Source: Streptomyces misionensis
Lineage (GTDB): Bacteria; Actinomycetota; Actinomycetes; Streptomycetales; Streptomycetaceae
NCBI RefSeq assembly: GCF_900104815.1
Contig: NZ_FNTD01000004.1
Span: forward strand, 5,827,001 to 5,891,000
Length of the DNA: 64,000 nt
Direction: 5' to 3'
The notes beneath the pieces were generated by a model. That model made no database searches. It saw only the letters and a list, made by a program, of their open reading frames with translations, and was not told the DNA's origin. Of this stretch, positions 12,159 through 31,420 are shown in pieces (within the stretch, counting starts at the first letter, position 1; each line of letters opens with the position of its first letter). The position numbers and the translations under genes are program-made.

Positions 12159-12800
12159 TCAGACGTGGTGGGCGTGCTCCACGGTGGCGATGCCGTGCAG
12201 AAGCACCTTCAGCACCGCCTGCAACTCGTCGTCCAGCTCTCCGGGCCGCTCGTTGTGGGCGTGCTGGGACCAGCGGTACAGGGCGCCGAAGTAGACGTCG
12301 CGCAGCAGATTGCCGACGCGCTCGGGCACGAGGTCGGGGGCGAGTTCACCGGAGCGGGCGCCGGAGGCGACGATGTCGGCGAATATCTCGGCGACGTACG
12401 GTTCCTCGCTCAGCGGCCGGCCCGCCTTCACCCAGGCGGAGAGCATGGCCGCGGTGACCTCCTGCTCCTCCTCGTTGATCCGGGCCAGCACCGACATACA
12501 TCGCACCAGCTGGGCGACGGCGTGCGAACCGTGGACGTCTTCCTGTTCCAGATAGGTGAGCAATTTGGTTCGCCGCTCCTCCCCCCAGGCACTGATGACG
12601 TCTTCCTTGCGCTGGAAGTAGTTGAAGAACGTCCCCCGGGCGACATCGGCGCGTTCCGCGATCTCGTCCACCGAGGTGCGGTCGTAGCCCTGCTCGGTGA
12701 ACAGGGACAACGCGGATGAGTAGAGGCGTTCTTTGACGCGCTGTTTGTTGCGTTCGCGTCGACCGGGCGACTGCGTCCCGCCTGACGGACCAGGAGCCAT
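12159..12800 (-). CDS. TetR/AcrR family transcriptional regulator
   Basis: A 213-residue regulator. The N-terminal helix-turn-helix covers about residues 15-62 (ALSLFTEQGYDRTSVDEIAERADVA, then GTFFNYFQRKEDV). The C-terminal ligand domain is unassigned. The ATG at 12800 is six bases from GGAG; an ATG two codons upstream is the alternative. It is transcribed leftward, in the same direction as the PKS gene behind it but separated by a strong terminator. Whether it controls the PKS block is unknown; the upstream region is unusually AT-rich (near 12850-12900). Confidence 0.85.
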   Translation of the reverse strand: MAPGPSGGTQSPGRRERNKQRVKERLYSSALSLFTEQGYDRTSVDEIAERADVARGTFFNYFQRKEDVISAWGEERRTKLLTYLEQEDVHGSHAVAQLVRCMSVLARINEEEQEVTAAMLSAWVKAGRPLSEEPYVAEIFADIVASGARSGELAPDLVPERVGNLLRDVYFGALYRWSQHAHNERPGELDDELQAVLKVLLHGIATVEHAHHV

Positions 12801-12909
12801 GTTCATCTCCGCTTCACGGGGCTGACAACGCTGAGTAGCGTCTAGGCTTTGCCATTGATTTTTATACCACAGTCTAACTATGGGGGCGAGTATCATTTCC
12901 GGATAAGTA

Positions 12910-12946
12910 CCGGGGCCGTCACGCCAGTTGGACGTGACGGCCCCGG
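12910..12946 (-). terminator. Terminator of the polyketide synthase gene
   Basis: A perfect 14-base-pair stem CCGGGGCCGTCACG / CGTGACGGCCCCGG with a 9-base loop lies 19 bases beyond the stop of the leftward PKS gene and isolates it from the TetR gene. Confidence 0.88.
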
Positions 12947-12964
12947 AGCCTGCTGTCGGACGGG

Positions 12965-15900
12965 TCACACGGGCGTGGGCGCCGCCGCGAGATCTCGGAC
13001 GATCCGCTCCAGACTCTCCGCGCCCAGCAGCCGGCCCGCGGTGATCTCCACACCGCAGCCGGTCTGGAGCCGCTTGCGCAGCTGGAGTGCCATGAGCGAG
13101 TCGAGCCCGAGATCGCGCAGCGACCGGCGCGGGTCCAGATCGGCCCGGGCCATCCCGAGCACCTCGGACGCCGCCGTGAGGATCGCGTCCGCCGGGTCCA
13201 CGCGCACGGTCACCGCGTCCGGCGCGACCGCCGCCTCCGTCCCCCCGGCCACCGGCACCGCGGCCGGGGCCGGGGCCGCGGCGCGGTGGTCCGCCCGGAC
13301 CGGCGCGGCCGGCCGGGCCGGGGCCTCGCCGAGCCGCAGCGCCCGCCGGGTGGCCGGCGGCCGGATCATGGTGGCGAACCGGGACAGCAGAGGACGCGCG
13401 GGGCCGCGCCGGGGCGCGCCCAGCCGGGCCGGCAGCGCGCGCACCAGGGAGGCCGCCGGGCCGGCCGGCCGCCCCGGGCGCCGCAGGGCGATCCCCCGGA
13501 ACTCCGCCAGTACCCGCCCGTCCCCGTCGAGCACCAGCACGTCGCCGCGCGCCTGCCGGGCGTCGGACCCGGGGGCGACGACGGCCAGGCTCCACAGGTC
13601 GTCCGTCAGCTCGCCGTACAGCTGCACACTGTCGAAGCCGGTCGGCACGAAGCCCCGGTCCTCCTCGCCGCGGCGCGCCTGCGGCCAGGCCGCGACCAAC
13701 GGCAGCAGCGCCGCCTCCCACAGCCCCGGCGCCGGTTTGGCGAGCCTGATCCGGGCCACCGCCTCACCGCGCCGGTGCCACACCTGCTCCACCGCGCCGG
13801 ACGTCTCGCCGATCTCCAGCCCGTGGCTCCCGGCCAGTTCCCGGAACCCGGCGGCGGACAGGTAGGTGTGGCAGCGGGCCAGGGCGCCGTCCAGCTCGCG
13901 GGGCGCCCGGCGGCCGTCGCTGTCGTCCACCGGGGTGAGCGACGCGGTGGCGCAGAAGGTCCGCTCGGTGCTGTCCGGCCGCTCCAGTTCGACGACCGCC
14001 CGCCAGCCGTCCCCGCCCCGTTCCAGGGCGACGGCCAGCACGGCGGCCGAGGGGTCCGGGAGGAGGACCGGAGCGGGGGCGAGCCGGACGTCGCGCACCG
14101 CGTACATCGTGCCGGGCAGCTTCTCGGCGGCCGTGTCGAGCACGGCGGCGATCTGCACGGCGGGCGGCAGTACGGTCAGCCCGGCCACGCTCAGCTGCTC
14201 CGCCCACGCGGCGAAGCCCCACCGGCCCAGCTCCACCCGGCCCTCCAGGACGGTCCGCGCCGGGTGCGGGGCGGCCGAAACCTGCCGGAACTCGGTGCGC
14301 TCCCACGGGTAGTGGGGCAGCGGCACCGGCCGCACCGGATGGCCGTACCACCGCGTCCAGTCGATCCGGCCGCCCGCGGCGAAGAACCGGCCCGCCGCGC
14401 GCACCAGTTCGGCCGTCTCGTCGGTGTCGCGGCGCAGCGAGGGCACGGCGGTGCCGGGCGCGCCGTCGTGGGCCAGGGTCTCGGCGACCGAGGCGGTGAG
14501 CACCGGGTGGGGGCTGATCTCCAGGAAGACGTTCTCCACCGTGCCGGTGGCGGCCAGGTCGGAGACCACCTCCCGGAAGCGCACCGGCTCGCACAGGTTG
14601 TCCGCCCAGTAGCCGGGGTCCAGTTCCGGTCCGGCCAGCTCGGCGCGGCGGACCGTGGAGAACAGTCCGGTGGCGGCCGCGCGGGGCGCCAACCCGGCCA
14701 GTTCGGAGGCCAGTTCGGAGTGCAGCGGGCGCATCTGGGGGGAGTGCGAGGCGACGTCGACGTTCACCGGCCGGCACAGCACCCCGTCGGCCTCCAGCCG
14801 GGCCGTCAGCTCCGCGAGGGCCTCCGGGTCGCCGGCGAGCACCGTGCAGGTGGGGGAGTTCTCCGCGGCCACGCACACCGACGGGATCCGGGAGACGGCC
14901 TCGCGGGCCCGGTCCGCGGACAACTCCACGACGAGCATGGCGCCTCCGCCCGCCACGCGTCGCATCAGCCGGCTGCGTCGGCAGATCACCGCCGCCGCGT
15001 CCCGCAGCGACAGCGCCCCGCTGACACAGGCCGCCGCCACCTCTCCCATGCTGTGCCCGACGCACATCTCCGGCGCCACGCCGAGGTCCCGCCAGGCCGC
15101 CGCCAGCGCCACCTGCACCGCCCACAGCGCGGGCTGCACGATCTCCACCCCGCCGGGGAAGCGATCGGCGTCCGCGGTCAGCAACTCCTCGACCGACCAG
15201 CCGAGTTCCTCGCGGATGGCCTGGTCGCAGGCGCGCAGGGTGGTCCGGAACGCCTCGTTGGAGGCGAGCAGGTCCCGACCCATGCCGAGCCACTGCGAGC
15301 CCTGTCCGGAGAAGACGAAGACGGCGCGCCGCGGACCGCTGAACCCCGCCTCGCCGACACCGCCGTGCGGGCTCTGCTCGCCCGCCGCCAACGCCCGCAA
15401 CACGGAGGCGAGTTCGTCATGCGAGGTGCCGGTGGCCCAGAGCCGGTGCGGGCCCGCGTCACGGCGCGTCGCCGCGGTCGCGCAGATGTCCGCGAGTGCC
15501 TGGTCGCGGCCCGCGCCGCCCGGGCCGAGGTGGTCCGCGTAGGCCCCGGCCAGGCGGCGCAGGGCCGCGGCCGAGCGGGCGGAGAGCACCAGCAGGCGGG
15601 GGCCGGGGACCGCGGGCACCACGGGCTCGGCCGGCCGCCGGTCGTCGACGAACTCGCCGACCACGACGTGGGCGTTGGTGCCGGACAGCCCGAAGGAGCT
15701 GACGCCCAGCAGGGCCTGGGGACCGGCCTTGTCGAGCGGGGTGTTCTCGGTGACGACGGAGACGGCCGGCCGCTCGCCGGTGAGCAGCGGGTGCGGGTCG
15801 GTCAGGTGCAGCGAGGCGGGGATGACGCCGTGGCGGGCGATCAGCACCGCCTTGATCAGCCCGGCGATGCCGGCGGCGGCCTCGGCGTGCCCGATGTTCG

Positions 15901-16942
15901 TCTTCACCGAGCCGCAGCGCAGGGTCCGTTCACCGCCCGTCGCCTCCCCCAGCGCGCGCAGCTCCACGGTGTCGCCGGTCGGCGTCCCGGTGCCGTGCGC
16001 CTCGACGTAGTCCAGCTGGGCGGGCTCGATCCCCGCGCTGTGGCAGGCGTCGCGCAGCATCTGGGCCTGCCCGGACACCGAGGGCTTCAGCAACAGCCCG
16101 CTGCCCTGGCCGTCGTTGGTGACCGCGCTGCCGAGCAGCAGGGCGAGCACCGGATCGCCGTCGCGCAGCGCGTCGGGCAGCGGCTTGAGGACGACCGCGC
16201 CGACGCCCTCGCTGCGCACGAACCCGTCGGCCGAGGCGTCCCCGAACCGGCACCGCCCGTCCGGCGACAGCATGCCGCCCTGCGAGTAGGCGATGGAGTC
16301 CTGCGGGGACACGATGATGTTGACGCCGGCCGCGATCGCGAGGCCGCTCTCGCCGGTCAGCAGGCTCTGCCGGGCGGTGTGCACGGCGACCAGCGAGGAG
16401 GAGCACGCGGTGTCCAGCACCAGGCTCGGTCCGCGCAGGTCGAGCGCGTAGGAGACCCGGCCGGCGGTGACCGCGCGCAGCCGTCCGCCCACGGTGTCGC
16501 GGACGCCGGGCCCGTCGGCCGGCTGCCCGGATTCACCGTATTCCGCGGTAGCCTGGCCCACGAAGACGCCGGTACGGGAACCGGCCAGACTGGACGGCGC
16601 GATTCCCGCCGATTCGAGGGCCTCCCATACGACGTGCAGCAGGATGCGCTGCTGGGGGTCCATGCTTTTGGCCTCGACCGGGGATATCCCGAAGAATCCC
16701 GCATCGAAGGAGAACGCGTCGTCGAGGAAACCGCCGTCGCGGGAGACGGTCTTGCCGGGGCTGGGCGCCCGGCCGGAGTAATGGTCGTCGATGTTGAAAC
16801 GGTCCTCGGGAATCCGGGTCACGGCCTCGGAGTTGGCCATGAGGAGATCCCAGAATTCGCCGGTGCTGTTGGCGCGGGGGAAACGGCATCCCATACCGAT
16901 GACGGCAATGGGAGTGCCACCTGCGCATGAGAAGCGCTCCAC
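12965..16942 (-). CDS. Type I polyketide synthase, single module KS-AT-degenerate DH-ACP
   Basis: A 1325-residue protein. The ketosynthase (about 10-430) has Cys180 in DTACSSS, His316 in EAHGTGT and His352 in NIGHAEA, so it should be active. The acyltransferase (about 540-830) has Ser631 in GHSMGE and the specificity loop VASHS (His733), closer to methylmalonyl-type than malonyl-type (HAFH) loops. Residues about 890-1190 look like a double-hotdog dehydratase fold, but the HxxxGxxxxP motif is replaced by EQLSVAGLTVLP, so dehydration is unlikely. The carrier protein has Ser1282 in LGLDSL. No ketoreductase, enoylreductase or thioesterase is present. The GTG at 16942 is preceded by AAGGTG. It diverges from the desaturase/mutase operon and probably works with it. 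Confidence 0.92.
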   Translation of the reverse strand: MERFSCAGGTPIAVIGMGCRFPRANSTGEFWDLLMANSEAVTRIPEDRFNIDDHYSGRAPSPGKTVSRDGGFLDDAFSFDAGFFGISPVEAKSMDPQQRILLHVVWEALESAGIAPSSLAGSRTGVFVGQATAEYGESGQPADGPGVRDTVGGRLRAVTAGRVSYALDLRGPSLVLDTACSSSLVAVHTARQSLLTGESGLAIAAGVNIIVSPQDSIAYSQGGMLSPDGRCRFGDASADGFVRSEGVGAVVLKPLPDALRDGDPVLALLLGSAVTNDGQGSGLLLKPSVSGQAQMLRDACHSAGIEPAQLDYVEAHGTGTPTGDTVELRALGEATGGERTLRCGSVKTNIGHAEAAAGIAGLIKAVLIARHGVIPASLHLTDPHPLLTGERPAVSVVTENTPLDKAGPQALLGVSSFGLSGTNAHVVVGEFVDDRRPAEPVVPAVPGPRLLVLSARSAAALRRLAGAYADHLGPGGAGRDQALADICATAATRRDAGPHRLWATGTSHDELASVLRALAAGEQSPHGGVGEAGFSGPRRAVFVFSGQGSQWLGMGRDLLASNEAFRTTLRACDQAIREELGWSVEELLTADADRFPGGVEIVQPALWAVQVALAAAWRDLGVAPEMCVGHSMGEVAAACVSGALSLRDAAAVICRRSRLMRRVAGGGAMLVVELSADRAREAVSRIPSVCVAAENSPTCTVLAGDPEALAELTARLEADGVLCRPVNVDVASHSPQMRPLHSELASELAGLAPRAAATGLFSTVRRAELAGPELDPGYWADNLCEPVRFREVVSDLAATGTVENVFLEISPHPVLTASVAETLAHDGAPGTAVPSLRRDTDETAELVRAAGRFFAAGGRIDWTRWYGHPVRPVPLPHYPWERTEFRQVSAAPHPARTVLEGRVELGRWGFAAWAEQLSVAGLTVLPPAVQIAAVLDTAAEKLPGTMYAVRDVRLAPAPVLLPDPSAAVLAVALERGGDGWRAVVELERPDSTERTFCATASLTPVDDSDGRRAPRELDGALARCHTYLSAAGFRELAGSHGLEIGETSGAVEQVWHRRGEAVARIRLAKPAPGLWEAALLPLVAAWPQARRGEEDRGFVPTGFDSVQLYGELTDDLWSLAVVAPGSDARQARGDVLVLDGDGRVLAEFRGIALRRPGRPAGPAASLVRALPARLGAPRRGPARPLLSRFATMIRPPATRRALRLGEAPARPAAPVRADHRAAAPAPAAVPVAGGTEAAVAPDAVTVRVDPADAILTAASEVLGMARADLDPRRSLRDLGLDSLMALQLRKRLQTGCGVEITAGRLLGAESLERIVRDLAAAPTPV

Positions 16943-17269
16943 GTACGTTCACCTTCGATCAGAGCCGATTGAGAACAAACACGACCGCCTCGCCCGGAAG
17001 CGGACAAGGCGGGTTGAGGTGCGCGGTGCAAGTGCGATGCAAAGTTACACCCCCAACCAAGATTGACCCAGAGGCTCATAACTGCGTCTCAGACTCTGTC
17101 CCGAATCGTGAGACGGTGTGGGCCGGTTGGTAGGTGTCTGTCCGGATTTCTTCCTTCTTGACTGTGACCCAGGTCACCGAATACTTGTACTTGCGTCTTC
17201 TTATGCATGTCAGTCTACTCTTGTGTTGTCGTTCATAAATGATCACCAGGGCACGACGGGGGAGCAGTG
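16943..17269. other. Divergent promoter region between the PKS gene and the LuxR/desaturase operon
   Basis: This 327-base gap is clearly richer in A and T than the flanking genes, especially at 17060-17245, which fits two back-to-back promoters. A Crp-like palindrome lies at 17164-17177. No small gene with a ribosome binding site was seen. Confidence 0.7.
17164..17177. promoter_or_regulatory. Crp-like operator in the accessory divergent promoter
   Basis: GTGACCCAGGTCAC fits the GTG-N6-GNCAC pattern reported for streptomycete Crp and is symmetric in its outer five bases on each side. It is about 90 bases upstream of the LuxR gene and 220 from the PKS start. Binding is inferred from the sequence only. 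Confidence 0.45.
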
Positions 17270-17599
17270 ATGTCCGACGCACCGTCAAGGTCCAGAGCCG
17301 TCGCGTACGCCGACGACGGCACCGATCCCATCGACGCACTGCCGGACTGGTCCGAGGCGCTGGCCGGGGTCGTCCACCTGTCGGTGCGCGAGCGCCAGGT
17401 GTTCCTGATGCTCGGCGCCGGCCATTCCAACCGCAGCATCGCCACCCGGCTCCGGGTGACCGAACGCACCGTCAAGGCGCATGTCGCCCAAGTGCTGAGC
17501 AAACTCCGGGTTGAATCCAGGCTGCAGGCGGGTCTCGTCGCCCACGCCTACCGCGTCATGAACGAAAGTCCAATTCACAGCCCGGGCCGCACGGGATAG
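17270..17599 (+). CDS. Small LuxR/NarL-type HTH regulator
   Basis: A 109-residue protein consisting almost entirely of a LuxR C-terminal helix-turn-helix (LSVRERQVFLMLGAGHSN, then ATRLRVTERTVKAHVAQV, about residues 37-85). There is no receiver or ligand-binding domain, only a 35-residue N-terminal tail. The ATG at 17270 has GGGGGAG at 17258-17264; a GTG one codon upstream is equally possible. It sits at the head of the rightward accessory operon and is the obvious candidate for its pathway-specific activator. Confidence 0.85.
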   Translation: MSDAPSRSRAVAYADDGTDPIDALPDWSEALAGVVHLSVRERQVFLMLGAGHSNRSIATRLRVTERTVKAHVAQVLSKLRVESRLQAGLVAHAYRVMNESPIHSPGRTG

Positions 17600-17816
17600 A
17601 AAAGTCCCCGGCGCACCGCTCCGGATCGCGTCGGAGAGGCTGAGCCGTCCCCGTGGCGGCCAGGGGGTTCACCATGCCCTGCTGGCCTCCGCTTTGCCGC
17701 GGCATCGTGTGCAGCACGCCGTCGGCGAAGTTCACTTTCCCATTCCCTCGCGGAATTCCGCAGCCATTTCGTCCTGCGCTGCCTGAACGCCCACTCCCCG
17801 AACAAGGAGATGACGC

Positions 17817-19037
17817 GTGTCCCTCACCGATGTCGAGACAAGAAGCGCCCGTGCCGAGGGCGCACCCGACCCCGCCGATCCGCGGGAAACCATGCGGGCC
17901 CTGCCCGGTTTCCTCCAGTACCCGCTCACCGTCTTCACCGGCAAACCGCTGTCCGAGCAGACCGGGCTGCCGTGGACCCCGACCTTCCACCTGGCCGCGG
18001 CGGTGTTCGCGATGCTCGCCGGCACCGCCGTCGGCTCGGCCGCCTGGGCGCTCGGCGGCTGGTGGCTCCTCGCCCTGCTCCCCGGCTGGGCGCTCACCCT
18101 GCACGGCCTGCGCAACCTGCGCATGATGGTCTACCACCAGTGCTCGCACCGGAACATGTACCGGCGCCGCCGCCTGGACACCGTCATCGGACGGGCCATC
18201 TCCAGCCTGCTCGTCATCCAGAACTTCGAGCGCTACAGCCGCGAGCACGTCAGCGACCACCACGCCGCCCACCACATGACGCTGCGGGACCCCACCGTGC
18301 AGGCGTTCCTCGTCAGCCTCGAACTGAGCCCCGGGATGACGCGCCGTCAGATGTGGCGCCGGGTCGTCGGCAAGCTCCTCTCCCCGCGCTTCCACCTGGC
18401 CTTCTCCGTCTCCCGCGTGCGCTCCTTCTGGAGCACCGCCGCCCGCAGCGAGCGCGTCGCCGCGGTCGTGCTCTACACCGCCCTGGCCGCCGCCACCATC
18501 GCCACCGGCACCTGGCCGGCCCTGCTGCTCGTGTGGTTCGTGCCGCTGCTGCCGCTGTTCCAGGTCAGCAACACCCTGCGGCTGTGCGTCAAGCACACCT
18601 TCCCGGTGGCCGGCACCGAAGTCCGGCGCGGCCGCGACTACTTCGCCGGCCTCACCAACGCCATCTTCATCGGTGAACCCGCCCCCTCGGCCACGCTGCC
18701 GGCCGGCCGCCGCGCCCTCGCCTGGGTCCGCTGGGCGCTGCGCATGCTGTTCGTGCACGCCCCGACCCGCTACCTCGTGCTCACCGGCGACACCGTGGTC
18801 CACGACTACCACCACCGCTACCCCTCCAGCCGGGAGTGGGCCGACTACCTCTTCGCCCGCAAGCGCGACATCGAGGCCGGCCACAAGGGCTGGCCCGAGT
18901 ACCACGAGGTGTGGGGCCTGGTCCCCGCCATCAACTACGTCTTCGACTCCCTGGCCGTCGCGGACCCGGCCGAGTACGACATCGCCCGGCTCCCGCACGT
19001 GAGCAAGCGCGAGCTGTTCGCCGCCTTCGACGACTGA
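17817..19037 (+). CDS. Membrane fatty acid desaturase-like di-iron enzyme
   Basis: A 406-residue protein with the three histidine boxes of membrane desaturases and hydroxylases: HQCSH at residues 107-111, HVSDHHAAHH at 144-153 and HDYHH at 329-333. Hydrophobic membrane segments lie at about 58-98 and 215-250. Such enzymes use oxygen and an electron donor to desaturate or hydroxylate acyl chains or carrier-bound intermediates. AAGGAGATGACGC directly precedes the GTG start. No ferredoxin is encoded nearby. It leads the operon that encodes glutamate mutase, so its substrate is more likely a pathway intermediate than membrane lipid, but this is inference. Confidence 0.88.
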   Translation: MSLTDVETRSARAEGAPDPADPRETMRALPGFLQYPLTVFTGKPLSEQTGLPWTPTFHLAAAVFAMLAGTAVGSAAWALGGWWLLALLPGWALTLHGLRNLRMMVYHQCSHRNMYRRRRLDTVIGRAISSLLVIQNFERYSREHVSDHHAAHHMTLRDPTVQAFLVSLELSPGMTRRQMWRRVVGKLLSPRFHLAFSVSRVRSFWSTAARSERVAAVVLYTALAAATIATGTWPALLLVWFVPLLPLFQVSNTLRLCVKHTFPVAGTEVRRGRDYFAGLTNAIFIGEPAPSATLPAGRRALAWVRWALRMLFVHAPTRYLVLTGDTVVHDYHHRYPSSREWADYLFARKRDIEAGHKGWPEYHEVWGLVPAINYVFDSLAVADPAEYDIARLPHVSKRELFAAFDD

Positions 19038-19095
19038 GGCCCCGTACCGACCCGAGACCCGCACCACCCGCCATCTCCCATCCACAGGAGCCCCC

Positions 19096-19530
19096 ATGCA
19101 GCAGCGGAAGATCATCCTGGGCGTGGCCGCGAGCGACGCGCACGCCGTGGCCAACCACCTGATCGCCCACGCCCTTCGCGGCATCGGCTACACCGTCGTC
19201 AATCTCGGCACCTGCACCCCGGTCGAGGAGTTCGCGGAAGCCTGCCGGGAGCATCCCGATGCCGAGGCGGTGGTCATCGGGAGTCTCAACGGCCATATCC
19301 ACGAGGACCTCCGGGACCTGGCCGCCACCAAGGCCGAGGGCGCGATCCGGTGCCCCGTCATCGTCGGCGGCAACCTCTCGGTGGGCAGCAAGAAGGACCC
19401 CGCCGCCCTGGAGCGGCTCTACCGGCTCGGCGTCGACCGCATCGTGAACGACCCGGCCGCCCTGCCCGCCGTGCTCGACGAACTGCGCGCCACCCGCCCG
19501 GTGGCCGAGCCGCTGCTGGCCGTGTCATGA
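19096..19530 (+). CDS. glmS: Glutamate (methylaspartate) mutase, cobalamin-binding S subunit
   Basis: A 144-residue B12-binding Rossmann-like domain. The cobalamin motif is SDAHAVAN (residues 13-20), which supplies the axial His; the usual glycine of DxHxxG is alanine. The second and third cobalamin blocks appear as GSLNGH and VIVGGNLSVG. With the E subunit it interconverts L-glutamate and L-threo-3-methylaspartate by a radical carbon-skeleton rearrangement. Its stop overlaps the next start by the ATGA pattern, so the two subunits are translationally coupled. The symbol refers to the mutase subunit, not glucosamine synthase. Confidence 0.92.
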   Translation: MQQRKIILGVAASDAHAVANHLIAHALRGIGYTVVNLGTCTPVEEFAEACREHPDAEAVVIGSLNGHIHEDLRDLAATKAEGAIRCPVIVGGNLSVGSKKDPAALERLYRLGVDRIVNDPAALPAVLDELRATRPVAEPLLAVS

Positions 19531-20950
19531 CCAGCAAGATCGTCCTCCTCGGCGCGGACCGCGCCGGGGAGGCCCCCCACAGCGTCCCCGGCGCCGAGTC
19601 CCTCCCGCCGCTCGAGGAATCCGTCGCCTACGTCGCGTCCCTCGGCAAGCCCACGGCCGCCCAAGTGCTCCAGGATGCCCGCGAGTCCGGCCGGGTGGCG
19701 ATCCAGCCGCGCTGCGGCGTCGGCGGCCACGAGGAGATGAAGGCCCTGCTGCGGGACCTGGAGGCCCAGGCGGCGCCCGACATCCTGACCCTGACCATCG
19801 ACGCGCACACCCGCCTCAAGCGGTTCGAGCAGGCGCTGCGCACCCTCAACCGCGACCCCCGGGACCTCAACGGCTATCCGCTGGTCACCCACGGCTGGCA
19901 GCGCGGCCGGGACCTCAACGAAGCCGTCGCCGCGCCGCTGGAGATCCGCCACGGCTCGCCCGACGCCCGCGCCCTCTTCGACGTCTCGGTGGCCTCCGGC
20001 ATCACCTCCTTCGAGGGCGGCGGCATCTCCTACAACCTGCCCTACTCCAAGGCCGTGCCGGTAGCGGAGTCGCTCGCCGCCTGGGAGGACGTGGACCGGG
20101 TGTGCGGCCGGCTCGCCGAACTCGGGCTGATCATCGACCGGGAGCTGTTCGGCACGCTGACCGCCGTCCTGGTCCCGCCGTCGATCAGCCTCGCGATCAG
20201 CGTGGTGGAGGCCGTGCTGGCCGCCCGGGCCGGGGTGCGCTGCATCTCGGTGGCCTATCCGCAGAGCGGCCACCTGGTGCAGGACGTGGCCGCGCTGCGC
20301 ACCATCCCGCTGCTGGCCCGCCGCTACCTGCCCGAGGGCGTCCAGGTGCACGCCGTGTTCCACGAGTTCATGGGCGTCTTCCCCAGGGGCCGCGGCCACG
20401 CCGAGGACCTCATCTTCTACGGCGCGCTCGTCGCCCGGCTCGGCGGCGCCTCCAAGCTGATCACCAAGACCTACCAGGAGGCGTACGGCATCCCCGACAC
20501 CCGCGCCAACGTCGAGGGGCTGCGGCTGGCCGCCCGCGCCAACTCCCCGCTGCTGGACTTCGTCGCGGTGGACGCGGACCGGGTCGCCGAGGAACAGGAG
20601 TGGATCCTCGCCGAGGTCGCCGACATCGTCGAACCCCTGCTGGAACAGCCGGACCTCAAGGCCGCGGTTTCGCAGGCGCTGGAGCGCGGCACGCTGGACA
20701 TCCCGTTCAGCGCGAGCCGGTACGCGAAGTCGGAGATCATCCCGAAGCGGGACGCGGAGGGCGCCATCCGCTATCTGTCCGCCGGTTCGCTGCCCCTGTC
20801 CCGGCGCGCGTTGCGCCGCAACGACGAACTGCTGCGCCGCGCCGAGGCAGGCGGCGCGGACCCGGGACTCGGCTCCCTGCTGGCGGATCTGACCGGAGAC
20901 ATCAACTACTTCCTCACCCTGTTCGGGGAGAGCGACCGTGAGGGGACGTC

Positions 20951-20954
<4 letters not shown>
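19527..20954 (+). CDS. glmE: Glutamate (methylaspartate) mutase, catalytic E subunit
   Basis: A 475-residue TIM-barrel subunit. Conserved blocks include [64 protein letters not shown] and HEFMGVFP, all characteristic of methylaspartate mutase E chains. It binds glutamate and forms the active enzyme with the small B12-binding subunit. Actinomycetes keep this pair mainly in secondary-metabolite clusters that use 3-methylaspartate, for example as a lipopeptide residue or as precursor of a beta-amino acid starter. Its end overlaps the next gene by four bases (GTGA). Confidence 0.94.
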
Positions 20955-23894
<2,940 letters not shown>

Positions 23895-23925
23895 CCCCGC
23901 CCACCCACTTCGCAGGGAGACCGCA

Positions 23926-25896
23926 ATGTCCACTCGCACCATCGACATCTGCATCGTCGGCGCCGGCCCCCGGGGCACCGTCGCGCTGGAACGCGTCTGC
24001 GCCAACGCGCCGCTGCTCAGCCCCGGCCAGGACGTCCACGTCCACGTCGTCGATCCCTACCCGGTCGGCGGCGGCCGGGTGTGGAAGTTCGACCAGCCGC
24101 GCGAGCTGCTCATGAACACCGTCGCCGGCGACGTCACCGTCTTCACCGACCAGACCGTCACCTGCGAGGGGCCGCTGACCCCCGGCCCCACCCAGTACCA
24201 GTGGGCCCGGATGGTCGCGGACGGCCTGGTGACCGACGTCAGCGACGAGGCGAAGGCCGAGGCCGCGCACATGGAGGCCTGGTCGTACGCCTCCCGCGCC
24301 TTCCAGGGCGAGTACCTGGGCTGGTCGTTCCGGCACATCGTGGAGCGCGCCCCGGCCGGGGTGTCCGTCAGCGTGCACCAGACCCGGGCGGTCTCCGTCA
24401 CGGAGTCCCCGGACGGGATGCAGGAGGTGCGGCTGGAGGGCGAGGACCTGCCGCTGCGGGTGGACGCCGTGGTGCTCGCCCAGGGCCACTACGACGTGGC
24501 GCCCACCACCCGCGAGCAGCACCTCATCGACTTCGCGGCCCGGCACGGACTGCACTACGTGGCCCCCAACAGCCCCGCCGAGGCGGACCTCTCGTGGGTC
24601 GAGGCCGGCGAGCCGGTCATCGTGCGCGGGCTCGGCCTCAACTTCTACGACTACATGATCCTGCTCAGCGAGGGCCGCGGCGGCCACTTCGTCACCGAGG
24701 GCGACGGCCTGCGCTACCTGCCCAGCGGCGAGGAGCCGGTGATGTACGCGGGCTCCGGGCGCGGCATGCCCTACCGGGCCCGGGCGGAGATCAAACAGGA
24801 GGTCGTACCCCGCTACAAGCCCGACTTCATCACGGCCACCGAGATAGCCGAGCTGCGGCTCGGCGCCGGCACCGGGCGCACCGACTTCCTGCGGGACCTG
24901 TTCCCGCTGGTGGCCAAGGAGGTCGCCTGGGTGTACTACCGGGCGCTGCTGAAGGACACCGCACCCGAGGGGCACGCCCGGCTGGTGGCCGAGTTCCCGG
25001 GCCTGAGCTGGGGCAGCCCCCGCATGGAGCGGCTCATCGAGGAACTGGTGCCCGACCCGGAGCTGAGGTTCGACTGGAAGCGCCTGGACCGCCCGGCGGA
25101 CGGGATCGGCTTCGCGGGACAGGCCGCCTTCCGCGACTGGATCACCGCCCAACTGGCCGAGGACCTGCGGCACTCCAGGCTCGGCCCGGAGCGCAGCGCG
25201 GTGAAGGCGGCCGCCGCGGTCATGCGCGACCTGCGCGAGGAGGTGCGGGCGGTCATCTCCCACCAGGGCATCAGCGGCGCCTCGTACCGCGACCACATCG
25301 ACCGCTGGTTCAGCGGCCTGAACAACTACGCGGCCAGCGGCCCGCCGGCCACCCGGGTGGCCCAGCTGCTGGCGCTGGTGCGGGCGGGGATCGTCGAACC
25401 GCTCGGCCCCCGGATGAAGGTGAGCGCCGAGGAGGACGACGGTGTCTTCCTGGCCTCGTCCCCGGACGTGCCCGGCACCGAGGTGCGGGCCACCGCGCTG
25501 GTGGAGGCGCACCTGCCGCTCACCGACGTCCGCCGGGCCACCGATCCGCTGCTCGCCTCGCTGCGCGCGGCCGGGGAGTGCCGGGCGCACTTCATCCCGG
25601 ACGCCGACGGCGGAGGGTACGAGACCGGCGGTCTGGACGTGACCGAGTCGACGTTCCAGGTGGTGCGCGGCGACGGCACCCCGCACCCGGCCCGCTTCAG
25701 CTACGGCCCGCCGGTCGAGTCCGTGCAGTGGGTCACGGCCATCGGCGCCCGTCCGCACGTCAACTCCCGCACGCTGCTCCAGGGCGACTCCATCGCCCGT
25801 TCGTGCCTGCGCCAGGGCATGGCGCGGCTCGCCCGGCTCGACGCCGACGACGCGGCCCGCCGCGAGACGGCGACCACTGTCCCGCTGGCCGGCTGA
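23926..25896 (+). CDS. FAD/NAD(P)-binding protein, unknown reaction
   Basis: A 656-residue flavoprotein-like enzyme. The N-terminal dinucleotide fold is ICIVGAGPRGTVALERV, followed by HVVDPYPVGGGRVWKFDQP and LLMNTVAGDVTVFTD, features of the NAD_binding_9 (PF13454-like) family common in actinomycetes. The C-terminal 300 residues have no recognisable domain. Members are uncharacterised as far as I know; by fold they could be N- or C-hydroxylating monooxygenases or dehydrogenases. It starts 31 bases after korB behind CAGGGAGA, so it belongs to the operon and probably tailors the product or recycles electrons. Confidence 0.8.
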   Translation: MSTRTIDICIVGAGPRGTVALERVCANAPLLSPGQDVHVHVVDPYPVGGGRVWKFDQPRELLMNTVAGDVTVFTDQTVTCEGPLTPGPTQYQWARMVADGLVTDVSDEAKAEAAHMEAWSYASRAFQGEYLGWSFRHIVERAPAGVSVSVHQTRAVSVTESPDGMQEVRLEGEDLPLRVDAVVLAQGHYDVAPTTREQHLIDFAARHGLHYVAPNSPAEADLSWVEAGEPVIVRGLGLNFYDYMILLSEGRGGHFVTEGDGLRYLPSGEEPVMYAGSGRGMPYRARAEIKQEVVPRYKPDFITATEIAELRLGAGTGRTDFLRDLFPLVAKEVAWVYYRALLKDTAPEGHARLVAEFPGLSWGSPRMERLIEELVPDPELRFDWKRLDRPADGIGFAGQAAFRDWITAQLAEDLRHSRLGPERSAVKAAAAVMRDLREEVRAVISHQGISGASYRDHIDRWFSGLNNYAASGPPATRVAQLLALVRAGIVEPLGPRMKVSAEEDDGVFLASSPDVPGTEVRATALVEAHLPLTDVRRATDPLLASLRAAGECRAHFIPDADGGGYETGGLDVTESTFQVVRGDGTPHPARFSYGPPVESVQWVTAIGARPHVNSRTLLQGDSIARSCLRQGMARLARLDADDAARRETATTVPLAG

Positions 25897-25915
25897 CACC
25901 CCCGAGGAGACGGCA

Positions 25916-27427
25916 ATGATCACGCTTGAGGCTGTACGAGAGCACGCCGCGACGGCACCGGACCGCGTGGCGGTCAGCGACGGGCAGGAGACGCTGACCT
26001 GGGCGGAGCTGGCGGACCGGGTGGCGGCGGTGCGGGCCTGGCTGACCCGCTCGCTGGACGCCGACGAGCCCAACCGGGCGATGGTGATCGCGGGCAACAC
26101 CGTGCGCGTCGTGGTGGCGACCGCCGCGCTGACCTCGCTGGGCATCCCCTGGGTGGGGGTCGACCCGGAGCGGGACGGTGCCACGATCGGCGAGCAACTG
26201 GCCGCCGTGGGGCCCACGTTCATCGTGGTGGACAGCTCGCTGCCCAACCTGCCGGAGGACTTCTGGCCGCGCTGGGGCGACACCGCCGTACTGCTCGACC
26301 TGGTGGCGTTCCCCGCGTTCGACACCCGGGTCACGCACTACCTGGCCGTCGCGGAGGGCGAGCACCAGGCCGCCCCCTGGGTCCAACCCCCGTTCAGCGC
26401 ACTGGGGTTCACCAGCGGTACCACCGGCACCCCGAAGCTGTTCGTGCGCCGCAAGCGCACCGAGAACCAGCGCGTCGCCTTCCTGCGGGACCGCTTCGCG
26501 TTCGGCCCCGGCGACTCCTTCCTGATCACCTCGCCCCTCGCCTTCGCCTCCGGACACGTGTGGGCGGGCGCCGCCCTCGCGCTCGGCGCCGCGGTGCGAC
26601 TCGGCCCGCCGGACGCCGAGGCGGCCGTGGAGGTGCTGGCAACGGAGCGGCTGACCGGCGCGTTCTTCGTGCCGCCCTTCCTCGACCGGGTGCTGGAGGC
26701 GGCCACCACCACCCACCGGGGCGCCGATCTGACGGCCCTGCGCTTCCTGCTCACCGGCGGCCGGCACATCAGTCCGCGCACCATCGACCAGACCCGGTCC
26801 CGCCTCGGCGATCTGCTGTACGTGTACTACGCGACCACCGAGACCGGCATCAACACCATGGCGGATCCGGCCGACCTGGCCGCCGCCCCGTACGCGGCGG
26901 GCCGCTTCATGCCGGGCGTGACGGTCCGCGCGCTCGACCCGGACACCCTCGGCGAACTGCCGCCCGGCCGGGTGGGACTGCTGGCGATCGACAGCGCGTA
27001 CGCCATGGACGAGTACGTGCACCGGCCGCTGGACACCGTCGAACTGGACGGCCGGCGGCACATCCTGACCAGCGACTACGGCTACCTCGGCGACGACGGG
27101 CGGCTCTACATCACGGCACGCTCCGAGCCCCGCCTCGACGTCGTGCGCGTGGAGGGGGCCATCAAGGAGGACCCGGCGGTGCGCGACGTGTGCGTCACCT
27201 CGGGGCTCGACGGCGCGGACACGGGCGCGGTCGCGGTGGTGGTGCTGCGGCCCGGGCTGGCACCCGAACTGCGGGACCGGGCCCTGGCCCGGGCCGGTGA
27301 GGTCCTCGGGCGGTTCGCCGGCCCGGCCAGGGTCACCGAGGCCGAGCGCATCCCGTACAACAGCGCGGGCAAGGTCGCGCTGCTGGTGCTGCGGGAGGAG
27401 CTGGCCGTGCGGCTGAGCGCCGCCTGA
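25916..27427 (+). CDS. Adenylate-forming enzyme (AMP-binding, class I)
   Basis: A 503-residue acyl- or aminoacyl-adenylating enzyme. The phosphate loop is TSGTTGTPK (about residues 165-173), the second core motif YYATTETG (about 303-310) and the A7-like TSDYGYLGDDG (about 383-393). The hinge motif is altered, TARSEP instead of GR.D, and the terminal catalytic Lys is in NSAGK. It is free-standing with no fused carrier domain. By analogy with clusters that contain glutamate mutase, 3-methylaspartate is a possible substrate and the PKS carrier protein a possible acceptor; a fatty acid is the alternative. It is the last gene of the operon. Confidence 0.85.
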   Translation: MITLEAVREHAATAPDRVAVSDGQETLTWAELADRVAAVRAWLTRSLDADEPNRAMVIAGNTVRVVVATAALTSLGIPWVGVDPERDGATIGEQLAAVGPTFIVVDSSLPNLPEDFWPRWGDTAVLLDLVAFPAFDTRVTHYLAVAEGEHQAAPWVQPPFSALGFTSGTTGTPKLFVRRKRTENQRVAFLRDRFAFGPGDSFLITSPLAFASGHVWAGAALALGAAVRLGPPDAEAAVEVLATERLTGAFFVPPFLDRVLEAATTTHRGADLTALRFLLTGGRHISPRTIDQTRSRLGDLLYVYYATTETGINTMADPADLAAAPYAAGRFMPGVTVRALDPDTLGELPPGRVGLLAIDSAYAMDEYVHRPLDTVELDGRRHILTSDYGYLGDDGRLYITARSEPRLDVVRVEGAIKEDPAVRDVCVTSGLDGADTGAVAVVVLRPGLAPELRDRALARAGEVLGRFAGPARVTEAERIPYNSAGKVALLVLREELAVRLSAA

Positions 27428-27448
27428 TTTTCCACGGAAAGAGCACGT

Positions 27449-27481
27449 CAGAGCCCCTGCCGCAAGTCGGCGGGGGCTCTG
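27449..27481 (+). terminator. Terminator of the accessory operon
   Basis: A 14-base-pair stem with one T-G pair (arms begin CAGAGCCCC and end GGGGCTCTG) and a 5-base loop lies 21 bases after the AMP-binding gene. Confidence 0.88.
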
Positions 27482-27490
27482 TCTTGCGCT

Positions 27491-27512
27491 CTGTACCTAC
27501 TAGTATGTACAG
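27491..27512. promoter_or_regulatory. Palindromic operator in front of the TetR gene
   Basis: A 22-base inverted repeat with arms CTGTAC and GTACAG around a TACTAGTA core has only one mismatched pair. It ends seven bases before the preferred start of the TetR gene, where a TetR autorepressor would be expected to bind. Confidence 0.65.
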
Positions 27513-27519
27513 TCGAGTC

Positions 27520-28086
27520 ATGAAGGCGACGAAGGAACACCTCGTCGAGGCCGCGGCCGAGTTGCTCTGGGAGCGCGGCTACGCGGCGACCAGCCCGGCG
27601 ATGATCCAGAAGCGCTCCCACGCCGGACAGGGGAGCATGTACCACCACTTCTCCGGCAAGGCCGACCTGGCCGTCACCGCCATGCGGCACTCCGCGGGCC
27701 AGCTGCGGCTCGCCACGGAGACGGCGCTGGACAGCGGCACGACGGCCCTGGAACGGGTCGGCGCCTACCTCGACATGGAACGCAACCCGCTCGCCGGCTG
27801 CCGTGTCGGCCGGCTCGTCCAGGATCCCGACGTCGTCGCCGACGACCGGCTGCGCGCCCCCGTGGAGGAGTTCTTCGGCTGGCTCCAGCAGCGCATCGCC
27901 GATGTGCTCGCCGAGGGCGTGCGCAGCGGCGAACTGCGCCCGGACACCGACGTCGCGGCCATGGCCTCGCTCGTCATCGCCACCGTCCAGGGCGGCTATG
28001 TGCTCGCCCGCGCCCAGCAGGACCAGGCGGCGTTCCGCCGCGCCACCCAGGCCGCGAAGAGCGCCCTCGCCCACCTCAGGGCGTGA
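27520..28086 (+). CDS. TetR/AcrR family regulator of an adjacent MFS pump
   Basis: A 188-residue regulator beginning MKATKEHLVEAAAELLWERG; the helix-turn-helix ends with QGSMYHHFSGKADL (about residue 50). Longer in-frame starts at 27505 and 27484 would lie inside the palindromic operator, so the ATG at 27520 is preferred. The MFS exporter follows 154 bases downstream in the same direction. The pair looks like a drug-responsive efflux cassette and could give self-resistance to the product of the neighbouring PKS/mutase operon. Confidence 0.85.
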   Translation: MKATKEHLVEAAAELLWERGYAATSPAMIQKRSHAGQGSMYHHFSGKADLAVTAMRHSAGQLRLATETALDSGTTALERVGAYLDMERNPLAGCRVGRLVQDPDVVADDRLRAPVEEFFGWLQQRIADVLAEGVRSGELRPDTDVAAMASLVIATVQGGYVLARAQQDQAAFRRATQAAKSALAHLRA

Positions 28087-28240
28087 CCCGGCCGTCCGCC
28101 GCCCCCGCTGCCCGGGGCGCGGCACCCCTCGCGCACCGGGTCACCGCCCTTCCGAACCGTCGCACCACCCCGCCGGACCCTCGCACCACCCCGCTCGCCG
28201 GACCCCGCCCCGGCACCGCGTCCGAAAGAAGGTTCACCCC

Positions 28241-29680
28241 ATGACCACCGTCCCCGACTCGCCGACGAGCACGGCGCGCCAGCCGATAGGCACGCCCGGC
28301 ACGCCCGCCGCTCCCGCCACGCCGGTGCGCAGCGCGCGCCACACCGCCCTCGCCCTCGCCGCCGTCTGCCTCGGCTTCTTCATGATCCTGCTGGACGGCA
28401 GCGCCCTGAACATCGCCCTGCCCGCCATCGAGCGGGACGTGCACGGCTCGATGGCCGCCCTCCAGTGGGTCGTCACCATCTACACCATCCCGCTGGCCAG
28501 CATCCTGCTCACCGCCGGCAGCATCAGCGACCGCTGGGGCGCCCGCCGGCTGTTCGTCTCCTCGCTCGCCGCGTTCACCGCCGCGTCCCTGCTGTGCGCG
28601 GTCAGCCCGAACCTGACCGTCCTGGTGGTGGCCCGCTTCCTCCAGGGCATCGCGGCCGGCGGTCTGCTGCCCACCACCCTGGCGATCATCGCCCGCACCT
28701 ACCCCGACCCGATCGAGCGCGCCAAGGCCATCACCGTCTGGGGCGCCACCGGCGGACTCGCCCTGGTCGCCGGCCCGATCGGCGGCGGCGCGCTGACCGA
28801 ACTCCTCGGCTGGCGCTCGATCTTCCTCATCAACGTGCCCGTCGGCCTGGTCACCCTCTACCTCGCCCAGCGCTACGCCAGCGAGACCCCCCGGCGCGAG
28901 GCCCGCGCCGCCGACCTGCCCGGCCAGCTGACCGGCATCATCGCCCTCTCCGCGATCGTCGCCTACCTGATCGAGGGCGGCTCGCTGGGCTGGCTCGCCC
29001 CCGTCCCGCTCGTCCTGCTCGCCGTCGCCGTCGTCACCGCGATCACCTTCGTCGCCGTCGAGTCCCGCTCCCAGCACCCGATGCTGCCGCTGGCCGTCTT
29101 CCGCCGCGCCGCGTTCTCCGCCTCCATCACCAACGGCTTCGCCTTCCAGTTCGGCGGCTACGGCCTCCAGTTCATGCTCGCCATCTACCTCCAGCAGCAG
29201 TGGGGCCTGAGCGCCGAGAAGACCGGCGTGTACTTCCTGCCCTTCGGCATCGCCTGGGTGTTCGGCACCATCGTCCTCAACCGCCGCCTGGTACACCGCG
29301 GTCCGCGGTTCCTGCTGTGGACCGGCGCGCTGTCCTCCTTCATCGGCAGCGCCCTGCTGCTCGGCGTCACCGACCAGAGCACCTGGCCGCTGTTCGCCAT
29401 CGGCACCAGCCTGACCGGTCTCGGCTGCGGAGTGTTCTCGCCGAGCCTCAACGCCGCCGCCCTGCTGGCCATCGACCCGGCCTACGCCGGCCTCGGCTCC
29501 GGCGTCCTCAACACCGCCCGCCAGGTCGGCATGGCGATGGGCGTGGCCCTGCTCGGCTCCCTGATCGGCATGCACGACACGATGCTCGGCCTGCGCGTGA
29601 GTGTCGTCCTGGTGGCGCTCTGCTTCTTCGCCATCATCGGTCTGAGCGTCGCGTACGTGCCGCGCAAGGAGACCGCCTGA
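28241..29680 (+). CDS. MFS efflux transporter, DHA2 (EmrB/QacA) type
   Basis: A 479-residue integral membrane protein with many hydrophobic helices. The DHA2 motif is seen in FMILLDGSALNIALPAI (about residues 47-63), the loop motif DRWGARRLF (about 98-106) and VWGATGGLALVAGPIGGG (antiporter motif C-like). It should export small hydrophobic compounds with proton antiport. GAAGG precedes the ATG. Its place behind a TetR gene and next to the biosynthetic operon suggests a resistance or export role. A short direct repeat (CGCACCACCCCG) lies in the leader at about 28160-28195. Confidence 0.88.
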   Translation: MTTVPDSPTSTARQPIGTPGTPAAPATPVRSARHTALALAAVCLGFFMILLDGSALNIALPAIERDVHGSMAALQWVVTIYTIPLASILLTAGSISDRWGARRLFVSSLAAFTAASLLCAVSPNLTVLVVARFLQGIAAGGLLPTTLAIIARTYPDPIERAKAITVWGATGGLALVAGPIGGGALTELLGWRSIFLINVPVGLVTLYLAQRYASETPRREARAADLPGQLTGIIALSAIVAYLIEGGSLGWLAPVPLVLLAVAVVTAITFVAVESRSQHPMLPLAVFRRAAFSASITNGFAFQFGGYGLQFMLAIYLQQQWGLSAEKTGVYFLPFGIAWVFGTIVLNRRLVHRGPRFLLWTGALSSFIGSALLLGVTDQSTWPLFAIGTSLTGLGCGVFSPSLNAAALLAIDPAYAGLGSGVLNTARQVGMAMGVALLGSLIGMHDTMLGLRVSVVLVALCFFAIIGLSVAYVPRKETA

Positions 29681-29693
29681 CCAACCCGCACCG

Positions 29694-29736
29694 GGCGGGG
29701 CCGTGCCGGACGGACCACCGACGGCACGGCCCCGCC
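29694..29736 (+). terminator. Terminator after the MFS gene
   Basis: A perfect 14-base-pair stem GGCGGGGCCGTGCC / GGCACGGCCCCGCC with a 15-base loop starts 13 bases beyond the stop of the MFS gene. Confidence 0.85.
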
Positions 29737-29780
29737 GCCCATCCGTAGAACCAGCGACGAGAACGGCAAGGAGCGCCCCC

Positions 29781-30758
29781 ATGCGCGCAGTAGTGGCCGA
29801 GCGGCACGGCGGACCCGAAGTACTCACCGAGACCGAACGCCCCGACCCCCGGCCGGGCCCCGGCGAACTGCTGGTCCGCCTGACCGCCGCCGGGATCAAC
29901 TACAAGGACGTCTACGAACGCGAGGGCCGCGCCGCGCTGCGCGCCCCCTTCGTCCCCGGCAGCGAGGGCGCGGGCACGGTCGTGGCCACCGGCGCGGACG
30001 TCACCGGGTTCGGGCCCGGCGACCGCGTCGCCTGGTGCGCGGCCCCCGCCTCCTACGCCGAACTCGTCGCGGTCCCCGCCCGCGCCGCGGTGCGCGTCCC
30101 GGACGACATCTCCGACAGCGACGCCGCCGCGGCCATGCTCCAGGGACTGACCGCCCACTACCTGACGACCTCCACCTACCGGGCGGCCGAGGGCGAGACC
30201 GCGCTCGTGCACTCCGCGGCCGGCGGCCTCGGACAGCACCTGGTGCGCCTGCTCGTCCGCCGGGGCGCCCGGGTCATCGGCACCGTCTCCACGCCCGGCA
30301 AGACCGCCGCGGCCGAGTCGGCCGGCGCCCACCACGTCATCGTCCGCGGCGCCGCCGACGACCTGACCCGGCAGGTCCTCGACCGGACCGACGGCAGGGG
30401 AGTGGACGTCGTCTACGACGGCATCGGCAAGGACACCTTCGAGGCGGGCCTCGCCGCGCTGCGGCCCCGCGGGATGTTCGTGCTGGTCGGCGCCGCCTCC
30501 GGGCCCGTCCCACCGCTCGACCCCCAGTCGCTCGCGCCCCGCGGCTCGCTGTTCCTCACCCGCCCTACCCTGGTCGACCACGCCACCGACCCCGCCGAAC
30601 TGGCCGGCCGCGCCGCCGACGTCTTCGGCTGGCTCCGCGAGGGCGTGCTGAAGACCACGATCGGCGGCCGGTACGGCTTCGACCGGGCCGCCCGCGCCCA
30701 CGCCGACCTCCAGTCCGGCACCACCACCGGCAAACTCCTCCTCCAGCCGGGGCACTGA
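29781..30758 (+). CDS. Zinc-independent quinone oxidoreductase (MDR family)
   Basis: A 325-residue medium-chain reductase. The GroES-like part (residues 1-120) lacks the catalytic zinc cysteines, as in quinone oxidoreductases, and the Rossmann fold has the NADPH motif HSAAGGLGQHLVRL (about 147-160). It should reduce quinones or enones with NADPH. AAGGAG lies nine bases before the ATG. It is separated from the MFS gene by a terminator and is followed 44 bases later by a flavin-binding-like gene, so the two probably form their own unit. An enoyl-reductase role in trans for the PKS is possible but unsupported. Confidence 0.87.
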   Translation: MRAVVAERHGGPEVLTETERPDPRPGPGELLVRLTAAGINYKDVYEREGRAALRAPFVPGSEGAGTVVATGADVTGFGPGDRVAWCAAPASYAELVAVPARAAVRVPDDISDSDAAAAMLQGLTAHYLTTSTYRAAEGETALVHSAAGGLGQHLVRLLVRRGARVIGTVSTPGKTAAAESAGAHHVIVRGAADDLTRQVLDRTDGRGVDVVYDGIGKDTFEAGLAALRPRGMFVLVGAASGPVPPLDPQSLAPRGSLFLTRPTLVDHATDPAELAGRAADVFGWLREGVLKTTIGGRYGFDRAARAHADLQSGTTTGKLLLQPGH

Positions 30759-30802
30759 GCGGCCCGCAGACCGGAGGGACAGCCGAAGGAACGGAGACGC
30801 CC

Positions 30803-31420
30803 ATGACCCGTTTCGCCCGCATCGCGTACACCGACTCGGTCCGCGGCGTCCAGGAACGCAACGGCAGCGGCCAGGCCATGCTGCGGCAACTGGACGGACC
30901 CGACGAACCCGACCCGCTCGGACCGGTGGAGCAGCAGTTCATCGCCGAACGCGACAGCTTCTACATGGCCACCGTCAGCGAGACCGGCTGGCCCTACATC
31001 CAGCACCGCGGGGGCCCGCCCGGCTTCCTGCACGTGCTGGACGAGCACACCGTCGCCTTCGCCGACGTGGGCGGCAACCGGCAGTTCATCACCACCGGAA
31101 ACCTGCGGCACAACGACCGGGTCGCCCTCTTCCTGATGGACTACGCCTACCGCACCCGGCTGAAGCTGTTCGGCCGCGCCCGCTGGCAGGACGCCGACGA
31201 GGCCCCCGCCCTGGCCGGCCGGCTCGCCCGGCCGCGCACCGACGGCCGCCTGGAACGGCTCGTCACCATCACCGTCGAGGGCCTCAGCTGGAACTGCCCC
31301 AAACACATCACCCCCCGCTTCACCCCGGCCGAACTGGACGAGGTGCTGCAACCGATCAGGGACGAGATCACCAGGCTGAGGGAGGCGAACCGGGCCCTCA
31401 CCGCCGAGAAGAAGGAGTGA
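30803..31420 (+). CDS. Pyridoxamine 5'-phosphate oxidase-like flavin-binding protein
   Basis: A 205-residue split-barrel protein. The strands FYMATVSETGWPYIQHRGGPPGF and NRQFITTGNLRHNDRVALFLMDY are typical of the FMN-binding PNPOx-like family that is fused to or found beside oxidoreductases. The C terminus (IRDEITRLREANRALTAEK) is a predicted coiled helix. It likely binds FMN or F420 and reduces small molecules. It is probably co-transcribed with the upstream quinone reductase and is the last gene of the accessory block before the conserved chromosome resumes at rnhB. Confidence 0.82.
   Translation: MTRFARIAYTDSVRGVQERNGSGQAMLRQLDGPDEPDPLGPVEQQFIAERDSFYMATVSETGWPYIQHRGGPPGFLHVLDEHTVAFADVGGNRQFITTGNLRHNDRVALFLMDYAYRTRLKLFGRARWQDADEAPALAGRLARPRTDGRLERLVTITVEGLSWNCPKHITPRFTPAELDEVLQPIRDEITRLREANRALTAEKKE

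Follow-up and report, generated by a model that had tools for sequence, protein, structure and literature searches.

A 64,000-nucleotide (nt) stretch of the Streptomyces misionensis genome (assembly GCF_900104815.1, contig NZ_FNTD01000004.1, positions 5,827,001 to 5,891,000), here called the window, contains a biosynthetic gene cluster whose core is a three-gene cassette, DES-MutS-MutE, which is present in several different cluster types. DES is a membrane di-iron oxygenase, and MutS and MutE (together MutSE) are most closely related to the two subunits of glutamate mutase. The cassette is accompanied by a CreE-family flavin N-monooxygenase with a changed pocket residue, an adenylating enzyme, a second copy of the genes for 2-oxoglutarate:ferredoxin oxidoreductase (KGOR; subunits KorA and KorB, together KorAB), and a divergent polyketide synthase (PKS). 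With about even confidence, we propose that the cluster would build an N-oxygenated 3-substituted aspartate from glutamate, to be activated and joined to a polyketide, and that KorAB is an accessory.

An original prediction, made from the letters of the window, had described an unrecognised biosynthetic locus at this position. Every gene that it named was found, in the same places and order, and MutS/MutE, MutE/KorA and KorA/KorB overlap by 4 nt (19527-19530), 4 nt (20951-20954) and 8 nt (22848-22855), respectively. The central features are:

12965..16942, minus strand: PKS, KS-AT-(degenerate DH)-ACP (domain search; 6 of 54 DES loci have a homologue divergent from DES)
17267..17599, plus strand: small LuxR-type helix-turn-helix regulator (GerE domain; a relative stands 5' of DES at 10 of the 54 loci)
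17892..19037, plus strand: DES, membrane di-iron oxygenase of the FA_desaturase fold, predicted amino-acid hydroxylase (fold, invariant His boxes)
19096..19530, plus strand: MutS, putative glutamate mutase S subunit, B12-binding (domain and family search)
19527..20954, plus strand: MutE, putative glutamate mutase E subunit (family search, catalytic-residue alignment)
20951..22855, plus strand: KorA, second copy of the KGOR alpha subunit (86% identity to the other copy in the same genome)
22848..23894, plus strand: KorB, beta subunit (family search)
22786..23303, no strand: gene-conversion tract that the cluster shares with the host's housekeeping korAB (runs of 114, 284 and 108 nt without a difference)
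23926..25896, plus strand: CreE-family flavin N-monooxygenase, PF13454 (PDB 8cp2, E=6.1e-159)
25237..25239, plus strand: codon for Glu438 of the flavoenzyme, equivalent to Asn413 of 8cp2 (alignment)
25916..27427, plus strand: ANL adenylating enzyme (nearest PDB sequences 6sq8 and 6h1b)

The DES-MutS-MutE cassette and its spread

The fold and the three His boxes that characterize membrane di-iron desaturases and hydroxylases are both present in DES, and the boxes (H82xxxH86, H119xxxH123H124 and H304xxH307H308) are invariant in 15 relatives. MutS and MutE are adjacent and carry their catalytic residues, as in glutamate mutases. When aligned to the solved enzyme, MutE retains Arg66, Arg100, Arg149, Glu171, Tyr177, Tyr181 and Lys326, the numbering and roles of which are presumably those of the solved glutamate mutase; the motifs are kept in 50-51 of the 51 aligned loci. 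Glutamate mutase pairs occur in other actinomycete clusters, for example as sanU/sanV of nikkomycin. As far as the partial accounts of such clusters extend (those of beta-amino-acid macrolactams, e.g. sceliphrolactam), the MutS-MutE pair and its catalytic residues are common to them and to the window, whereas the window locus adds DES and an N-oxygenase and has neither nonribosomal peptide synthetase modules nor a pyridoxal phosphate (PLP) decarboxylase, both of which had already been recorded as absent.

A search for MutE in 392 genomes of the genus gave a match in 141, and 20 places in 19 genomes stood at 59-100% identity, the next match being at 43%. Besides the window's own place, the 19 remaining close ones and one at 43% were inspected, and DES adjoins MutSE at 15 of these 19. 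In the opposite direction, the DES alignment was used to scan named genomes; the scan, which relied on two peptide patterns and therefore passes over relatives that do not have them, yielded 54 loci. MutS is present in 51 of these and MutE (at least 55% identity) in 50; the flavoenzyme follows with 11, LuxR with 10, the divergent PKS with 6, KorA with 4 and the adenylating enzyme with one. Several loci (L077, L078, L082, L084 and L123) are truncated by contig ends, and neither a PKS-like match in L120 (32%) nor the MutE of L105 (38%) was counted. Elsewhere DES-MutSE is found with ATP-grasp ligases, with a PLP decarboxylase and an aminotransferase, or with CreE and CreD. The gene set is no isolated case but one among several cluster types built on the cassette. 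MutSE also occurs without DES, in L041, L043 and L044, beside genes for an ectoine-synthase-like cupin, an acyl-CoA dehydrogenase, a transglutaminase-like protein, a PLP enzyme and ATP-grasp proteins.

The biosynthetic locus recurs as a unit, since gene-cluster comparison recovered the same order in other species, beyond chance. In Streptomyces sp. HPF1205 (L076), TetR-PKS is divergent from LuxR-DES-MutS-MutE-flavoenzyme-adenylating enzyme-TetR-MFS-MDR-PNPOx, and no further housekeeping gene of the window was found on three additional stretches of its contig, which places it at another chromosomal position. The full gene order is likewise conserved to either side of a contig break in S. hygroscopicus NBRC 3401 (broken at korAB, with PKS to KorA in L123/L033 and, in L156, KorB to PNPOx with rnhB next) and in S. 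malaysiense (PKS to KorA in L034, flavoenzyme to PNPOx and rnhB on another contig, L166). In S. griseocarneus, PKS-DES-MutS-MutE-KorA ends with 47 residues of KorA at a contig end, and on a second contig a KorB fragment lies 5' of the flavoenzyme, with no adenylating enzyme 3' of it.

A CreE-family N-oxygenase with an acidic residue at position 413

The gene at 23926..25896 had been listed only as an FAD/NAD(P)-binding protein; the gene is real, but the enzyme so left unnamed is the most diagnostic of the locus. Residues 6-629 match the aspartate N-hydroxylase 8cp2 over its full length (E=6.1e-159). According to the excerpts of PMC10404684, the Streptomyces sp. V2 enzyme (8cp2) holds aspartate by Arg13, Arg276, Arg416, Arg577 and Asn413, and its N413E mutant retains NADPH oxidation, with little aspartate hydroxylation and no 3-nitropropionate. 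In the window enzyme the dicarboxylate Arg cluster is kept, all of Arg13, 266, 276, 409, 412, 416 and 577 (8cp2 numbering) being aligned to Arg, while position 413 is occupied by Glu438. The enzyme is therefore a CreE relative by descent that, judged by this residue, fails as an aspartate hydroxylase, and it is predicted to N-oxygenate another substrate, derived from the mutase and DES. An N-oxygenase family that is normally acidic at 413 is a natural counterpart of the laboratory mutation, in which an engineered Glu stopped aspartate oxidation.

Residue 413 was compared over 61 tree rows (57 different sequences; the truncated flavoenzyme of L046 was excluded), which comprise 21 Asn, 35 Asp, two Glu, two Ala and one Ser. 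The tree is split (100/100) into 20 rows, with 19 Asn and one Asp, and 41 rows, with 36 acidic, two Asn and three other residues. Mutase context was judged on the L-numbered rows. The mutase-linked enzymes of type A and type B clusters are acidic at 413 and lie within the 41-row clade; the two Asn413 rows with a mutase, L047 and L097, are a single CreD-bearing locus seen twice. L047/L097 and L096 are clusters of ATP-grasp ligases, a CreE-type enzyme and DES-MutSE, and L096, a relative of the L097 locus, has no CreD and has lost flavoenzyme Arg266, 276 and 577. In L103 (15186-16181) and L106 (15186-18473) an O-methyltransferase lies directly 3' of the flavoenzyme, followed in L106 by S-adenosylmethionine synthetase and a PfkB kinase, which hints at a product both O-methylated and N-oxygenated.

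The flavoenzyme could still be a nitrosuccinate synthase that delivers nitrite or 3-nitropropionate from aspartate by the CreE/CreD route. Its family membership and Arg cluster would agree with this, as would the type F loci L047/L097, which unite a CreE-type enzyme (Asn413), CreD and DES-MutSE. The Glu at 413 and the effect of N413E described in the excerpts of PMC10404684 argue the other way, as does the absence of CreD from the cluster, and we hold this route to be highly improbable. With the nitrosuccinate lyase model, nothing above the cut-off was found in the genomes G000, G003, G327, HPF1205 and that of L096. The best CreD-like match in the host genome, at 551 bits, falls short of the cut-off (650) and lies about 2.2 Mb from the cluster, and at 1e-60 there was no match in G003 or G327. 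The CreE/FzmM aspartate N-hydroxylases (nitrosuccinate synthases, of which 8cp2 is solved; PMC10404684) share with the window enzyme full-length homology, the FAD/NADPH fold and the substrate Arg cluster; they differ in having Asn413, where the window enzyme has Glu and its close relatives Asp, and in that the window has no CreD and has glutamate mutase and DES alongside.

The second korAB copy

KorAB had been presented as a defining enzyme of the pathway, a view that is not supported: it duplicates an enzyme of housekeeping metabolism, and the otherwise complete HPF1205 cluster, whose genome has a single korA, does without it, so that KorAB is best regarded as accessory. Another KorA, 86% identical, is encoded elsewhere in the host genome. 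A housekeeping-type KorA is present in each of the 20 Streptomyces genomes searched, and among these the cluster copy is found only in the type A genomes G000, G003 and G327; S. misionensis 66 has it as well, and S. griseocarneus has fragments of it. The three cluster KorAs form a clade of their own (100/100) against 19 housekeeping copies. Of the 450 columns invariant in the latter, the window copy keeps 430 and differs at 20 (18 substitutions and two gaps), 13 of the substitutions being common to all three cluster copies. KorB differs at five of 218 such columns. KorA scores 643.5, above the TIGR03710 cut-off of 482.75, and KorB 248.8, just under its cut-off of 261.9.

At 22786-23303 the cluster and host korAB genes share identical runs of 114, 284 and 108 nt, whereas most other 200-nt blocks are 77-93% identical and the longest identical run between housekeeping genes of different species, taken as a control, is 87 nt. 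These runs show recent gene conversion with host korB, and KorB hardly differs from the host protein over residues 22 to about 152, the part with the cysteine and thiamine pyrophosphate-binding motifs. In S. misionensis 66 (L081, L140, L157) the cluster and housekeeping korAB are joined crosswise, with 1026 identical nt in common; this may be an assembly join rather than a real exchange.

KorAB might alternatively be biosynthetic, supplying succinyl-CoA, oxidizing a 2-oxo acid of the pathway or providing reduced ferredoxin for DES. The overlap of korA with mutE, the constant place between MutE and the flavoenzyme in KorA-bearing loci and the KorA score above the cut-off would fit such a role, which nonetheless remains doubtful to us, given the HPF1205 cluster, the presence of KorA in only 4 of 54 DES loci (some truncated by contig ends) and the 430 invariant columns kept, which favour the ordinary substrate.

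KorAB could also serve self-protection: the product, in nitro or N-hydroxy form, would resemble an acid of central metabolism and inhibit the KGOR of the host, and the cluster would carry a tolerant or extra copy. The restriction of the second KorA to type A genomes, S. misionensis 66 and S. griseocarneus, the separate clade with its 13 common substitutions, and the fact that the pathway genes do without KorAB in HPF1205 are in keeping with this; the conversion of KorB residues 22 to about 152 to host sequence leaves no altered KorB active site, and HPF1205 and the type B genomes have no extra KorAB, so that we consider protection rather unlikely. In a more specific version, the product is a small 3-substituted aspartate that bears a nitro or N-hydroxy group and is joined to a polyketide; it would be an antimetabolite directed at the tricarboxylic acid cycle, and the korAB copy would protect the producer from it. 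This version appears unlikely indeed. We know of no earlier natural inhibitor of KGOR; were this version true, the product would be the first, found via its resistance gene, and the clade acidic at 413 would stand for a new specificity among N-oxygenases, directed at amino acids that derive from the mutase.

Proposed pathway and limits of the cluster

The pathway outlined here, with its substrates, step order and product, is what we infer from the genes. MutSE would convert L-glutamate to 3-methylaspartate, and DES would hydroxylate the 3-methylaspartate skeleton, the former methyl group being a guess as to the site. The CreE-family flavoenzyme would then oxidize the amine to an N-hydroxy, oxime or nitro group, the acidic residue in place of Asn at 413 being read as a sign that the substrate is no longer aspartate. 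The adenylating enzyme may activate the N-oxygenated unit or a partner acid, the KS-AT-degenerate-DH-ACP synthase may provide or extend an acyl chain, and the MFS transporter probably exports the product. KorAB would be a functional accessory duplicate of host KGOR whose use lies in dosage or protection and not in assembly of the skeleton.

The PKS comprises KS, AT, PS-DH-like and ACP domains; KR is absent, and a chain-release domain (TE) was not found by domain search. The KS Cys and His residues, the AT motif and the ACP Ser motif are intact, and the His at the HxxxG position of DH is missing in the window protein and in all 31 sampled relatives. Iterative synthases of the orsellinic/6-methylsalicylic type are arranged as KS-AT-DH-like-ACP. 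The window PKS is like them in domain order and size but has lost the DH/TH His, and no PKS relative among the matches listed bears either name. P0122-P0241 form a large Streptomyces family of stand-alone KS-AT-(degenerate DH)-ACP synthases, none of which has a product name among the matches listed. That PKS relatives are common in Streptomyces, and that type B clusters have none, could mean that the PKS is a mere neighbour with its own product, outside the DES-MutSE pathway; the divergent arrangement of TetR-PKS and DES recurs, however, at 6 of the 54 loci, in different species and, in HPF1205, in another chromosomal setting, and we think such independence improbable. The nearest solved sequences to the adenylating enzyme, 6sq8 and 6h1b, which we take to be the amide bond synthetase McbA, are distant (91 bits). 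McbA-type synthetases are described, in part, in the excerpts of PMC6282839. Among the enzyme's relatives in the protein database (at least 44% identity), 8 of 27, the window's own included, come from a record whose longest contig has exactly the same length as that of a flavoenzyme relative, an indirect sign that the two are linked.

Several observations weigh against the proposed pathway. NCBIfam scores are under the cut-off for both MutS (94.4 against 110) and MutE (360.8 against 390.1), and the MutS DxHxxG motif reads DxHxxA, Ala replacing Gly, although glutamate mutase is still the closest family for both. The best NCBIfam match of DES is GntB, the arginine gamma-hydroxylase of guanitoxin, which belongs to the same membrane di-iron fold family, and the match scores 65 bits where the cut-off is 380, so that hydroxylation is predicted at the level of the fold. 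The correspondence between residue 413 and mutase context is imperfect: within the acidic clade, P0016 and P0061 carry Asn, and within the Asn clade the mutase-linked L096 carries Asp413. CreD was above the cut-off in five of ten genomes searched, namely the L097 genome and four type B genomes (there outside the inspected cluster stretch), which weakens the argument from CreD absence for type B and leaves that from residue 413 unaffected. Finally, type B clusters have neither PKS nor adenylating enzyme, so that the place of both in the pathway is a guess.

If the proposal is correct, a B12-dependent carbon-skeleton rearrangement would be coupled to amine oxidation, the outcome being amino-acid building blocks that are both branched and N-oxygenated, and DES-MutS-MutE would serve as a handle for finding many such actinomycete clusters. 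The gene set had been said to match no known pathway; likewise, no cluster with it was found in the open-licence literature searched, sources that were available in part and do not speak for print at large, and the product may therefore be new.

The limits first given, 12965..27427, proved too short, and the cluster extends from about 12159 to 31420 through the following genes:

12159..12710, minus strand: TetR-family regulator (Pfam TetR_N; adjoins PKS in L076, L077, L081, L084 and L123)
27520..28086, plus strand: TetR-family regulator (domain search; recurs in related clusters)
28325..29680, plus strand: MFS transporter, probable exporter (domain search; recurs in related clusters)
29793..30758, plus strand: MDR-family NADPH reductase, quinone-reductase-like (domain search; locus comparison)
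30803..31420, plus strand: PNPOx-like flavoprotein (domain search; 3' of the MDR gene in HPF1205 too)

In the host genome of 8.47 Mb, the cluster is bordered on the left by the core genes lexA, nrdR and that of a class II ribonucleotide reductase, and on the right by rnhB (31689) and a RecQ-like helicase gene.

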